Below are positions 25,365 to 37,213 of a stretch of DNA of 49,019 nt, in pieces. A program made the translations under genes and the position numbers. Origin of the DNA: Bacillota bacterium (lineage in GTDB: Bacteria > Bacillota > Sulfobacillia > Sulfobacillales > Sulfobacillaceae); NCBI GenBank assembly GCA_021841025.1, contig JAKBWA010000078.1, positions 1-49,019 on the forward strand, written 5' to 3'. Under the pieces are notes generated by a model. The model saw nothing but the letters and a program-made list of their open reading frames with translations, ran no database searches and was not told the DNA's origin. Each line of letters begins with the position of its first letter. Position 1 is the stretch's first letter.

Positions 25365-25424
25365 GCTGGCGCTTGAAGGTTTCATCCCCAATGATGGATC
25401 AAGGAAATGAAAGAGGGGAATGGA

Positions 25425-32882: not shown

Positions 32883-34040
32883 ATGCGCAAAGAATTTCTG
32901 CCCTATAATTTACCGGATTTGGACTGGGAAGAAGAGGAGGCTCTCGTTCAAACTTTAAGGAGCCATTGGATCAGTCGAGGGCCCCTCACCGAGCAATTTG
33001 AAACGGCTTTGTCCCAGGAACTGGGTGTCCCTCAGGTTTTAGCCCTGTCCTCTTGTACGGCTGGTATGCATTTGGCCTTATTGGCCCGGGGCATTGGTCC
33101 GGGTGATGAAGTTATTACCACGCCCATGACATTTGCCGCGTCGGTCAATGTCATCATCCATGCCGGTGCCACTCCGGTTTTAGTGGATGTCGAGGAGGAT
33201 ACCGGCAATATTGATTTAACCCAAGTTGAAGAGGCCATTACCGACAAAACGAAAGCGATTCTGCCCGTTCACTATGCTGGCCATAGTGTCGATATGGAGC
33301 ATCTCAACCGTCTTCGTGACCGTTATCGGCTCATCATTGTGGAAGATGCGGCTCATGCTATTGCCTCCTCGTACCAGGGGCGAAGGGTCGGAAGCTTCGG
33401 CAATATTACTTCGTTTTCCTTTTATGCCAACAAAAATCTCACGACCGGCGAGGGCGGGGCTATGGTTGTGCCGGATCCGGACTTGGCTGAGAGAATTCGC
33501 ATCTTGTCCCTTCACGGCATGTCCCGCCACGCGTGGAACCGCTACAGCGAAAAGGGATCGTGGGCCTATAGCATCGAGGCTCCAGGGTTTAAATACAATA
33601 TGACGGATTTGCAGGCTGCTTTGGGTTTAGTGCAATTGCAAAAGCTTGGGCGCATGCAAGCCCGGCGAGAGCAGATTGCGCGCCGTTATACCCAGGAATT
33701 GAGTGATTTACCGGTAATTGTACCCACAACACGTGAATATGCCAAGCATGCTTGGCATCTCTACCCCGTGAGACTTCAGAGTGAATTCTTAACGATAAGC
33801 CGTGATGATTTCATTCAGCGGTTGAAAGAGCATAATATCGGAACGTCAGTGCATTTCATCCCCATCCATTTTCATCCTTATTATCAGGAGCATTATGGTT
33901 TTAGACCAGGGCAATTTCCCCACGCGGAGCAGTTTTTCCACCAAGAAGTGTCATTGCCGCTCTATCCGTCTATGACTGATGCGGATATTCACGACGTCAT
34001 CCAGAGTGTGCGTGCGATTATCCTTTCCCATTTGGTGTGA
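32883..34040 (+). CDS. Second DegT/DnrJ/EryC1 aminotransferase (PglE/PseC-type)
   Basis: The 385-residue PLP enzyme opens with LPYNLPDLDWEEEEALVQTL, typical of 4-aminotransferases acting on 4-keto-6-deoxy sugars (PglE, PseC, ArnB). It has LSSCTAGMHLALLARGIGPGDEVIT, EDAAHAIASSY, and Lys184 in SFYANKNLTTGEGG. Paired with the 4,6-dehydratase at the head of the cluster it would give a UDP-4-amino-4,6-dideoxy-GlcNAc, the bacillosamine precursor. It lies one base from the epimerase and one base from the sugar transferase, so the three are certainly co-transcribed. The exact sugar is inferred. Confidence 0.85.
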   Translation: MRKEFLPYNLPDLDWEEEEALVQTLRSHWISRGPLTEQFETALSQELGVPQVLALSSCTAGMHLALLARGIGPGDEVITTPMTFAASVNVIIHAGATPVLVDVEEDTGNIDLTQVEEAITDKTKAILPVHYAGHSVDMEHLNRLRDRYRLIIVEDAAHAIASSYQGRRVGSFGNITSFSFYANKNLTTGEGGAMVVPDPDLAERIRILSLHGMSRHAWNRYSEKGSWAYSIEAPGFKYNMTDLQAALGLVQLQKLGRMQARREQIARRYTQELSDLPVIVPTTREYAKHAWHLYPVRLQSEFLTISRDDFIQRLKEHNIGTSVHFIPIHFHPYYQEHYGFRPGQFPHAEQFFHQEVSLPLYPSMTDADIHDVIQSVRAIILSHLV

Positions 34041-34041
34041 G

Positions 34042-34635
34042 ATGTTAGTCCTCAAGCGTCTTTTTGACATCGGTGTGTCTTTATTGTTACTGGTATTATG
34101 CAGCTGGCTCTTTATTCTTGTGGCGGTCATTATTCGTTTAGACTCTAAAGGTCCTGCATTTTTTGTGCAAGTTCGCGTAGGCCAACAGGGAAGGACTTTT
34201 CCTATGTTGAAGTTCCGAACCATGTATAACGGCGCGGAACACAAATGGCAGCCACCCTCCAAAGAGGAAGCCCTGGCGTACAAATTCCAGGAACAAGGTG
34301 ATGTTCGTGTCACCCGAGTAGGGCGAATTCTGCGCCGCACTTCGCTGGATGAACTGCCGCAGCTTTGGAACGTCCTCCGCGGACAAATGTCTTTGGTGGG
34401 ACCCCGTCCGGAAATTCCTGCCATGGTGGCCATCTACCCCGATTACGGTCATAGCCGCCACCGGATGCGCCCAGGCATTACGGGATTGGCTCAAGTCATG
34501 GGCCGGGGTGATTTGACTCTGGCTCAAAGTTTAGAGTGGGATTTAAAATACTGTGAAACATGGACCATTGGTCTTGACTTCAAGATTATTTGGCAGACGT
34601 TAAAGGGAGTGTGGCTTCGCCGGGGTGCTTACTAA
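34042..34635 (+). CDS. Undecaprenyl-phosphate phospho-sugar transferase (PglC-type initiating transferase)
   Basis: The 197-residue monotopic phosphoglycosyl transferase starts glycan assembly by moving a phospho-sugar from a UDP donor to undecaprenyl phosphate at the inner leaflet. It has the N-terminal KRLFDIGVSLLLLVLCSW re-entrant helix, KFRTM (around 53) and the catalytic RRTSLDELPQLWNVLRGQMS with the Asp-Glu pair, followed by LVGPRP. Its short length matches PglC rather than the long WbaP type, which agrees with the upstream dehydratase/aminotransferase pair as donor suppliers. ATG 34042 begins one base after the previous stop. The in-frame upstream extension overlaps that gene. Confidence 0.88.
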   Translation: MLVLKRLFDIGVSLLLLVLCSWLFILVAVIIRLDSKGPAFFVQVRVGQQGRTFPMLKFRTMYNGAEHKWQPPSKEEALAYKFQEQGDVRVTRVGRILRRTSLDELPQLWNVLRGQMSLVGPRPEIPAMVAIYPDYGHSRHRMRPGITGLAQVMGRGDLTLAQSLEWDLKYCETWTIGLDFKIIWQTLKGVWLRRGAY

Positions 34636-34699: not shown

Positions 34700-34733
34700 A
34701 TCGAATACCGTCATGAAAATCAAAATATTCGAT
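34700..34733. promoter_or_regulatory. Inverted repeat upstream of the PHAX/ParB-like gene, candidate operator
   Basis: ATCGAATA 34700-34707 and TATTCGAT 34726-34733 form a perfect 8-bp inverted repeat with an 18-base centre, ending 35 bases before the gene whose product starts with an HTH-like segment. It is AT-rich without a following T-run, so an operator is more likely than a terminator. Confidence 0.45.
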
Positions 34734-34768
34734 TCGACAGGCGATGCAACCGGTCGATCACAGAAAGG

Positions 34769-35905
34769 ATGAATGATGTGGGACGTCCGAGGACCAACTC
34801 CGTGCCTTCGTGGTCGGTTATGACCCTTTCTCAAGTTACGGGATTGCCCGTTTCGATTATTTGGTCGGACTTGAAGACTGGCGTACTTACCGGCGTGAGT
34901 GTACAGGGTAAAACCATCATACGTCTGGAAGATCTCTCCTCGGCGAAGCGGGAACAGTATCGCAATGTTGCTGGTAATTTAGGCTATGTGTCCCGTGAGC
35001 GTGAACAAGGCGAAAGCACACGAATAGACTGGGGAATCCGACCGTCTTTTGCGACGTCCTGGAGAAGCCGGCATGCTCAAGTCTACCGCGGAGAACCCGT
35101 CAAAGTATTAGGTTGTGAGTTAATCGCCTCAGAGCGGCTGACATCTCGCATCAATGCTCCCTCTTTGTCTCCGGGGATTATTGCTCTGAGCGGATTCGCG
35201 GGGCCAAGAGGAGCCCGGCCGGTATTTGTGATAGGACCGGAAGCGGACTTGGATCAGGACCTTATCGCTATTCGTTTGCTTCCCCAAATTGTGTTTGCCT
35301 ATCCTGTCGCCTTACAAGCAGCCAAACGAATACTTCTGGCTGTTCACGAGAGTCCCAACTACTTGAGTAATAGCGTGGCGCAATTAATATTAGATTACGG
35401 GACCAAGGCCATCGTGGGGCTAGCCGAAGAAGCCTGGGGCCTAAACGATCAGGACACGCGTGCCAAGACGCCCCAGCTCTTTTGCCAAGATGGAAGGCGG
35501 CGAACGATTGGGGGAATCTTCTTTAACCTGGTTAAGGCCAAAGGTTACTGGGATGCTCAAGTGGGCAGCGGATCCTCAGAAGCCGTCATAAAAGGAGAGG
35601 TGCGGCCAATTTCCTCAGAAATGATCGCATGGGCTGAAAATTGTTCGGAAGTGAATGACTCGCCCGGACATGACATTGAGATGGAAGTTCCTTTGGATCA
35701 GATTCTCGTGCCCGTGGCCTTTGAAATGCATCCGCCTCACCCCAAGAAAATTGAGAAGTTCTTAGCCCGCCGATCAGAGTGTCCTCTTTTAGTCAAACAC
35801 GTCGAGGGCGAGGGCAAGAGACCTTACCTCCTTTTGGATGGGTACGCCAGGTACCTGGCAGCTAGGCAAAATAGCCGGGACAGGGTGTGGGTGCATGTGA
35901 TTTAA
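34769..35905 (+). CDS. Multidomain protein: HTH-like start, PHAX-type RNA-binding domain, ParB-like C-terminus
   Basis: The 378-residue soluble protein has at least three parts. Residues 16-58 resemble a MerR/excisionase-type DNA-binding segment (MTLSQVTGLPVSIIWSDLKTG, then IIRLEDLSS). Residues 76-185 match nothing recognised. Residues 195-257 fit the RNA-binding domain of the eukaryotic snRNA/snoRNA export adaptor PHAX, best seen in RRRTIGGIFFNLVK (243-256), the counterpart of the family's RRRTPGG-V-F core. Residues 305-378 look like a ParB/sulfiredoxin-type domain (VPLDQILVPV, then LLLDGYARYLAARQ). A role in RNA-dependent regulation or nucleic-acid defence is possible but unproven. The start may be GTG 34778, better placed after AAAGGA. 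It follows the glycan operon after 133 bases. Confidence 0.6.
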   Translation: MNDVGRPRTNSVPSWSVMTLSQVTGLPVSIIWSDLKTGVLTGVSVQGKTIIRLEDLSSAKREQYRNVAGNLGYVSREREQGESTRIDWGIRPSFATSWRSRHAQVYRGEPVKVLGCELIASERLTSRINAPSLSPGIIALSGFAGPRGARPVFVIGPEADLDQDLIAIRLLPQIVFAYPVALQAAKRILLAVHESPNYLSNSVAQLILDYGTKAIVGLAEEAWGLNDQDTRAKTPQLFCQDGRRRTIGGIFFNLVKAKGYWDAQVGSGSSEAVIKGEVRPISSEMIAWAENCSEVNDSPGHDIEMEVPLDQILVPVAFEMHPPHPKKIEKFLARRSECPLLVKHVEGEGKRPYLLLDGYARYLAARQNSRDRVWVHVI

Positions 35906-35944: not shown

Positions 35945-36478
35945 TTGGTTAAATGGCTAAACCTGTTTTGGGGATTTTTTAAGGTTGGCATTTTAGGTTA
36001 CGGGGGAGGGCCCGGATCCATCTCGTTGATCCAATCAATTGCGGTGAATAGCTACCACTGGATGGACAACACCAAATTTGCGGAAATGTTGGCCATAGGA
36101 AATGCTCTTCCCGGACCCATCGCGACCAAGCTGGCAGCCGCCATCGGGTGGCGGGTGGGAGGAGTGATAGGCGCTTTGAGTGCTCTTGTAGGGATTGTCC
36201 TTCCCTCTGTCGTGTTGATGCTGAGCTTATATCAACTTCTCTTGGCACACCAGTCGAATCCTTATGTCCAGGGTCTGATTCGCGGGGTGAAACCGATTGT
36301 GGTGCTCTTGCTGGTTCTGATTGTTATCGACTTCATTCCGGGCGCTTTTCCTCAGAATCGTTATGTAATCCCTCTCATTATTTTCGTTTTAGGCTTGATA
36401 GCCATAAAGGGCTTTAAAATTTCTCCCGTATGGGTAATTATGGGTTCCATGATCTCTGGTGCTCTATTTCTGCGTTGA
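35945..36478 (+). CDS. chrA: Half-size chromate transporter (CHR family, single domain)
   Basis: The 177-residue membrane protein is one CHR domain with about five or six helices. It begins LFWGFFKVGILGYGGGPGSISLIQ, the FGGG-type motif of N-terminal CHR halves, and includes NALPGPIATKLAAAIGWRVGG. Short CHR proteins normally occur as two adjacent genes forming a heterodimer, but no second half is found on either side. The TTG start is preceded by GAGGAGGG at 7 bases. In the family it exports chromate or takes up related oxyanions by proton coupling. Activity of a lone half, perhaps as a homodimer, is uncertain. It begins 39 bases after the PHAX-like gene, suggesting co-transcription. Confidence 0.82.
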   Translation: MVKWLNLFWGFFKVGILGYGGGPGSISLIQSIAVNSYHWMDNTKFAEMLAIGNALPGPIATKLAAAIGWRVGGVIGALSALVGIVLPSVVLMLSLYQLLLAHQSNPYVQGLIRGVKPIVVLLLVLIVIDFIPGAFPQNRYVIPLIIFVLGLIAIKGFKISPVWVIMGSMISGALFLR

Positions 36479-37213
36479 ACTGGCCCAGCCATGGAGCGAG
36501 GCTTTGCTAAGCTCAAGAGACCCAGGCAGAAAACCGGGAGGTTTCTTATCATCGCAAAGCCCATAGGAATTTCGCGAGTAAGAATTTCACCCTGCAGGAC
36601 AAGATATTTTTGATCGAGGGAATTTTATTAAAACACACAGCCTTTGTTGTGCATATACATATAGCGTAAGTGGCAGCCGAAGAAAGACCCAAAGAGAATG
36701 AGAGGGCGTGCCTCAGCAATTCCTATCCAAGAACCCTGGGGCCTGGGGTTTCTTCTCATATGGGAGTTGGATCTTGCTGGAATATGGAATCTTATGCAGT
36801 TCCACGAATATCAGTCTTAATGGATAGGAGATATTCCGCAACGCTAGTATCTTCAGCGGGTGAACTCATCGAAACCGGTGTCACTACCATAACTTTACAT
36901 GTTCACGTGAAAGAATTTCCGGTATAGTCAATGGACTCAAGGACTTTGATTGACATAACCAGAACATGGGCTGAGTGCCAAAATATTCGAGAGCCCAAGA
37001 GTAGCGATCGTGAAATGATGAGATTTTGCACGATTTTGGTGCAGACATTGGTCAAACATTTGGTGCAAACATAATATCAGATTATTGCGGCTGTCAGAAC
37101 AGTCGAGAGTATGATATAATAACTTTAACGCGACAGCACCTTTCCTTCGAAATTCTTCTCTCCACTTATCTCTGCCGGTCTCAGTTTTCGTTCTCGTGAA
37201 CGGAGGGATGACC
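36479..37213. promoter_or_regulatory. 735-base intergenic region with an inverted repeat, two direct repeats and a -10 box before yhbH
   Basis: GGCTTTGC 36500-36507 and GCAAAGCC 36554-36561 form an inverted repeat just after chrA. At 37035-37048 and 37059-37072 lie two near-identical 14-mers (TTTGGTGCAGACAT and TTTGGTGCAAACAT), 24 bases apart, about two helical turns. They are followed by the palindrome CTGT-CAGA-ACAG around 37091-37102 and a TATAAT near 37113-37118. This looks like an operator array and promoter of the yhbH-spoVR-prkA operon. An 85-codon frame at 36670-36927 has no credible start site. Confidence 0.5.

Follow-up and report, generated by a model that had tools for sequence, protein, structure and literature searches.

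The window, i.e., the whole stretch of 49,019 nucleotides analyzed here, carries an exopolysaccharide-type gene cluster that starts at 25407 and has a bacterial sugar transferase gene as its last member. The next gene in the window codes for a protein that very probably joins a PHAX fold to a ParB fold, and is separated by 39 bases from a single-domain chromate transporter gene (Table 1). PHAX is familiar chiefly as the RNA-binding fold of eukaryotic RNA-export proteins, and ParB is the fold of bacterial DNA-partition proteins. The 378-codon frame of the original prediction is confirmed by the list of open reading frames, and residues are numbered from its first base, 34769, rather than from the GTG at 34778. 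The latter is probably the true start, since AGAAAGGA lies eight bases 5' of it and the five orthologous genes are identical in GAAAGGATG and in the in-frame GTG. The first 9 bases of the frame would then probably be untranslated, and the N-terminus of the protein would read MGRPR; by eye only, the GRPR at the protein start looks like an AT-hook core. An inverted pair, ATCGAATA / TATTCGAT, lies 5' of the gene (window 34700–34745), and its first arm, as TATCGAATA or AGCGAATA, is kept upstream of the gene in all five carriers, whereas the second arm is not kept. A search for intrinsic-terminator-like sites gave none between 33900 and 37300, and co-transcription with the neighboring genes is therefore possible. 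Farther downstream, a 717-base gap without a clear gene (window 36479–37195) separates the chromate transporter gene from a DUF444 gene; a MerR-like regulator and a transporter-like gene occupy the place of this gap in the genomes G025 and G026.

Table 1 Features of the PHAX-ParB locus, with positions in the window
Feature	Position	Strand	Description
Upstream neighbor, bacterial sugar transferase (PF02397)	33979..34635	+	Pfam E 5e-66
Shine-Dalgarno-like AGAAAGGA	34762..34769	+	8 bases 5' of in-frame GTG 34778
PHAX-ParB gene	34769..35905	+	378 codons, from the ORF list; 4 syntenic orthologs, 55–75% identical
N-terminal segment	34805..34984	+	Residues 13–72; candidate winged helix-turn-helix by predicted element order
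Middle part	34985..35260	+	Residues 73–164, conserved across the ortholog alignment; no match
Predicted PHAX-type RNA-binding fold	35288..35545	+	Residues ~174–259; AlphaFold, structure comparison, PF10258
PHAX core signature RRRTIGGIFFNLVK	35495..35536	+	Residues 243–256; within the PF10258 match
Linker	35546..35668	+	Residues 260–300; invariant GYW and GSGSS; low model confidence
Predicted ParB/sulfiredoxin-type domain	35672..35902	+	Residues 302–378; Box II P motif GYAR at 358–361
Downstream neighbor, single-domain chromate transporter (PF02417)	35945..36478	+	Pfam E 1.5e-41

PF10258 (PHAX_RNA-bd) is the sole Pfam family matched by the protein in hmmscan (library-corrected E 2.1e-4), and the remaining parts have no Pfam match. 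A match to this family had been predicted for residues 195–257; it was found, but it covers residues 239–258 only (profile positions 48–67) and its 21.6 bits lie below the curated cut-off of 25 bits. The predicted core signature RRRTIGGIFFNLVK does fall inside the matched stretch, aligns to SRRRTPGGVFLNLLK of 2xc7 and SRRKTIGGVFCYLLK of 2w4s, and shows the pattern RRRT.GG.F..L.K, of which RT.GG.F..L.K is present in all five orthologs with R245, T246, G248, G249, F251, F252, L254 and K256 invariant. All five orthologs match the family, and the one from G023 (genome search, neighbors in frame) exceeds the cut-off with 26.4 bits. When a 78-residue piece around the motif was compared with the PDB sequences, human PHAX 2xc7 was the only match (E 0.46), and a profile of residues 165–290 placed 2w4s first (E 0.67) and 2xc7 second (E 1.1) among 177,635 PDB sequences. 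Singly, these E-values are weak, and their weight lies in the top rank of a family that had been named beforehand; because both solved PHAX domains lead this ranking and five of five orthologs match PF10258, the resemblance goes beyond chance. The basic triad before T246 reads RRR, RRR, RPR, SLR and TLR across the orthologs, i.e., RRR is kept in two of five. With RR, RR, RP, SL and TL at the two positions before R245, the presumed RNA-contacting charge is not conserved, and the PHAX part as a whole carries no more than +3 to +6 net charges. Across 398 genomes of the phylum, PF10258 had one other match (E 5.8e-4); its reading frame is interrupted by a stop, and the match is probably due to chance.

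The structure prediction extends the resemblance from the signature to a whole domain. AlphaFold modeling of residues 165–290 alone, which rests on five sequences, gives block-mean pLDDT values of 72–90 over residues 175–264, and the fact that only one of the five models is good (70.4 versus ≤59.8 for the rest) calls for caution. In Foldseek searches against the PDB, this model retrieves 2xc7 first with a probability of 0.92 and an E-value of 0.24, all others having a probability of 0.06 or less, and VIA-align places 2w4s (Z 7.8, 82 residues, rmsd 3.1) and 2xc7 (Z 5.7, 81 residues, rmsd 3.4) ahead of the next entry at Z 2.6. The alignment to 2w4s spans 82 of its 86 residues at 23% identity. 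The expected all-helical PHAX fold is thus recovered in the model, with 2w4s and 2xc7 as its closest structures, but its predicted extent, residues ~174–259, begins near residue 174 and not at residue 195 as had been proposed. A viral structure library returned nothing above a probability of 0.15 for the same model. The full-length AlphaFold model, likewise from five sequences, has a mean pLDDT of 41.9 and is poor outside the C-terminus; PHAX is not among its structure matches and appears only with the isolated region.

The C-terminal 77 residues are predicted to have the ParB/sulfiredoxin fold, in agreement with the original assignment of a ParB-type part. The model of residues 302–378 superimposes on sulfiredoxin 6ky4 with Z 10.8 (72 residues, rmsd 1.7) and on the nucleotide-bound ParB 7bnr with Z 9.9 (72 residues, rmsd 2.7); nucleotide-bound ParB structures overall give Z values of ~9–10, and Foldseek also finds the ParB/sulfiredoxin fold. 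The protein has no direct Pfam match to ParB_N, and hhalign relates it with 98.9% probability and 41% identity to a set of small ParB_N proteins from its own bacterial family. Four of these were compared with the ParB_N cut-off and three exceed it, and their match to phrog_36163 extends along most of the sequence. Going by the ParB box definitions of an earlier survey (PMC12704722), all five orthologs retain the GxxR P motif of Box II (GYAR, GYTR, GYTR, GYVR and GYIR), and the base-contacting Box I, made up of a helix and a loop, lacks about five residues by comparison with the closest ParB_N relatives. There is no Box III, since the last strand is followed by the end of the protein, only 22 residues separating the DGY motif from the C-terminal end. 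The ParA-binding motif [LFI]G[KR]G[LFI] occurs in none of the five orthologs, and the helix-turn-helix and C-terminal dimerization domain that follow the N domain in canonical ParB are not present. Furthermore, a second protein with a strong ParB match is encoded elsewhere in each genome of the genus, so that the PHAX-ParB protein is not the partition protein.

The small relatives form a family of proteins of ~220 residues, in which a conserved N-terminal part precedes the ParB_N domain at the C-terminus (L022:6555-7220, L023:6767-7441, L024:6806-7468 and L025:7128-7778); phrog_36163, which the family matches, is of unknown function. A tyrosine recombinase gene lies directly upstream of the ParB_N gene, on the same strand, in L024 and L025. 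Pairs of HTH_17 and ParB_N genes ~1.2–1.4 kb apart were also seen at three sites in related genomes (G025:C2:243434-245131, G026:C1:413743-415440 and G024:C92:37916-39378), and are possibly parts of mobile elements.

Residues 4–72 are the most conserved stretch of the protein (dN/dS 0.02–0.10). A low-confidence model of the N-terminus gives the element order H20–24, H28–36, E43–45, E48–52 and H58–70, which resembles a winged helix-turn-helix. The helix-turn-helix that had been postulated here was nonetheless not confirmed, as there is neither a Pfam match nor a PDB profile match for it and the hhalign score of residues 13–72 against the MerR/excisionase-type HTH_17 (PF12728), 15.9, falls within the range of the best of 200 column shuffles (15.8–17.4). 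No Pfam match was obtained for residues 65–174.

Of 154 genomes examined from the class, five have an ortholog of the whole protein, and a sample of 398 genomes from the phylum gave no others. Searches of plasmids, phages and viral contigs yielded no relatives of the whole protein or of the PHAX part. The sugar transferase and chromate transporter genes flank the gene in all five carrier species, and the gene is absent from this locus in two further species of the same genus (G024 and G027), where ~110–165 bases separate the flanking genes. In a PrkA tree a moderately supported branch (77/89) has all five carriers on one side, as would fit a single gain or a single loss in the sister pair. For the whole gene, pairwise dN/dS is ~0.09–0.12, pointing to strong purifying selection on the coding sequence, and the protein looks functional. 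The position shared with the exopolysaccharide genes may be a matter of mere location.

Full PHAX export adaptors have CBC-, ARS2- and CRM1-binding regions, which are not expected in a bacterium. With the PHAX domain as defined by PF10258 and its solved members from human (2XC7) and Cryptosporidium parvum (2W4S), the present protein shares a predicted helical fold of ~82 residues and the signature RRRT.GG.F..L.K; it differs in being bacterial, in scoring below the curated cut-off and in that the basic triad is not found in all orthologs. Unlike eukaryotic PHAX, it shows no sign of the export-adaptor regions and is fused to a ParB fold. Compared with the ParB-CTPase/sulfiredoxin group (PF02195 ParB_N; ParB, Noc, VirB, SerK, SbnI and Srx), the predicted fold agrees with Z ~8–11, the GxxR P motif is shared and there is clear profile similarity to proteins above the ParB_N cut-off, whereas a direct Pfam match, a full-length Box I, Box III and a ParA-binding motif are lacking, and the domain is C-terminal and minimal at 77 residues. 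The position aligned with the catalytic glutamate of SbnI is V, R or K in the PHAX-ParB proteins. The small ParB_N relatives from this bacterial family have a C-terminus 41% identical to that of the PHAX-ParB protein (DGYRRY), but an unrelated N-terminal part of ~110 residues and an intact Box I, and tyrosine recombinases adjoin two of their loci.

According to a survey of ParB-CTPase folds, these bind CTP, ATP or GTP and occur in many orphan fusions, some with RNA-related domains such as ASCH and the PUA-like DUF3850 (PMC12704722). The fusions in that survey (ASCH, PUA-like DUF3850 and MT-A70) are alike in that an orphan ParB fold, located away from parAB operons, is combined with a domain presumed to be RNA-related, and differ in the partner domain, which is PHAX here and is absent from the main text of that paper (PMC12704722). 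Literature searches for bacterial PHAX, or for PHAX joined to ParB, found no paper, and the combination appears to be undescribed. Since the survey has RNA-related ParB fusions without PHAX and no PHAX-ParB paper was found, we regard the kind of protein as known and the partner domain as new.

The reading that we favor is that of a nucleic-acid-binding regulator that is chromosomal and lineage-specific and combines a PHAX fold with a ParB fold. In this protein the PHAX fold would bind single-stranded RNA (or DNA), as its eukaryotic relatives bind RNA, and the ParB fold would bind a nucleotide or act as a dimer or clamp module, thereby making the grip on nucleic acid switchable. The conserved N-terminus may serve as an anchor on DNA or on a partner, and the most likely target would be a transcript or the promoter region of the protein's own locus. 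The RNA-binding step is weakened by the erosion of the basic triad in three of five orthologs, and the CTP step by the shortened Box I. For these reasons we give the regulator about an even chance and put RNA as its ligand somewhat below that; action on its own locus is rather doubtful. The proposal that the protein touches both DNA and RNA is plausible, although its DNA-binding segment is unconfirmed and the triad is kept in two of five orthologs only. A more specific version, in which the binding of single-stranded RNA to the PHAX fold determines the nucleotide state that the ParB fold adopts, and thereby whether its clamp on DNA or RNA is open or closed, strikes us as improbable; if true, it would make the protein a bacterial regulator whose ParB-type switch is directly controlled by a transcript.

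An alternative that we consider unlikely, yet foremost among the others, is a ParB-like DNA-binding transcription factor that serves the exopolysaccharide locus in the manner of VirB or Noc, with a PHAX fold that has lost RNA binding and now makes protein–protein or DNA contacts. The erosion of the RRR triad in three orthologs, the retention of the GxxR P motif in all five and the N-terminus as the most conserved part would suit such a factor, and VirB is a known ParB-derived transcription regulator (PMC10770331). Against it stand the missing ParB-type helix-turn-helix after the N domain, the missing Box III and the lack of a confirmed DNA-binding domain. The protein could also stem from a mobile element, either domesticated or as a relic, with a ParB part derived from integrase-associated, phage-type ParB_N proteins, a single insertion of the fusion in the ancestor of the five species and an anti-element or accessory role. 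This is in agreement with the nearest relatives of the C-terminus, i.e., ParB_N proteins that match phrog_36163, two of them beside tyrosine recombinases, and with two sister species in which the locus cleanly lacks the gene; we hold it to be quite improbable, however, given that the whole protein has no phage, plasmid or viral-contig homolog and no PADLOC match, keeps a fixed position in five species and is under strong purifying selection.

The PHAX resemblance itself might be convergent, a short RT.GG.F..L.K motif having arisen on an unrelated helical bundle. The window protein does lie under the Pfam cut-off with a sequence match of 20 residues only, the fold model comes from five sequences with one of five models clearly better, and the Foldseek E-value of 0.24 and the Z score of 7.8 are moderate. 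Convergence would, however, have to account for both solved PHAX domains ranking top by sequence profile and by structure, for the alignment of 2w4s over 82 of 86 residues at 23% identity, for the viral structure library giving nothing above 0.15 and for one ortholog above the curated cut-off, and we judge there to be little chance of it. Least probable by a wide measure, and hardly credible, is an RNA-guided regulator or defense effector, as had been suggested originally. An RNA-binding fold next to a ParB-like fold is all that speaks for it, whereas Rfam gives no match in the window, PADLOC gives none either, defense genes are not linked to the gene, the gene has a conserved place in a biosynthetic locus, and searches of phages, plasmids and viral contigs gave no homolog; both parts of the suggestion, the RNA guide and the defense role, are left unsupported.

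For the regulator with a PHAX and a ParB fold, the presence or absence of the gene at one locus in sister species offers a simple, genetically isolated case for asking whether ParB-type switches can act on RNA. A bacterial PHAX fold that is under selection and fused to a ParB-type fold would also bear on the origin of the PHAX domain, which one comparative study took to be an animal innovation (PMC3032688); the solved PHAX relative 2W4S is apicomplexan.
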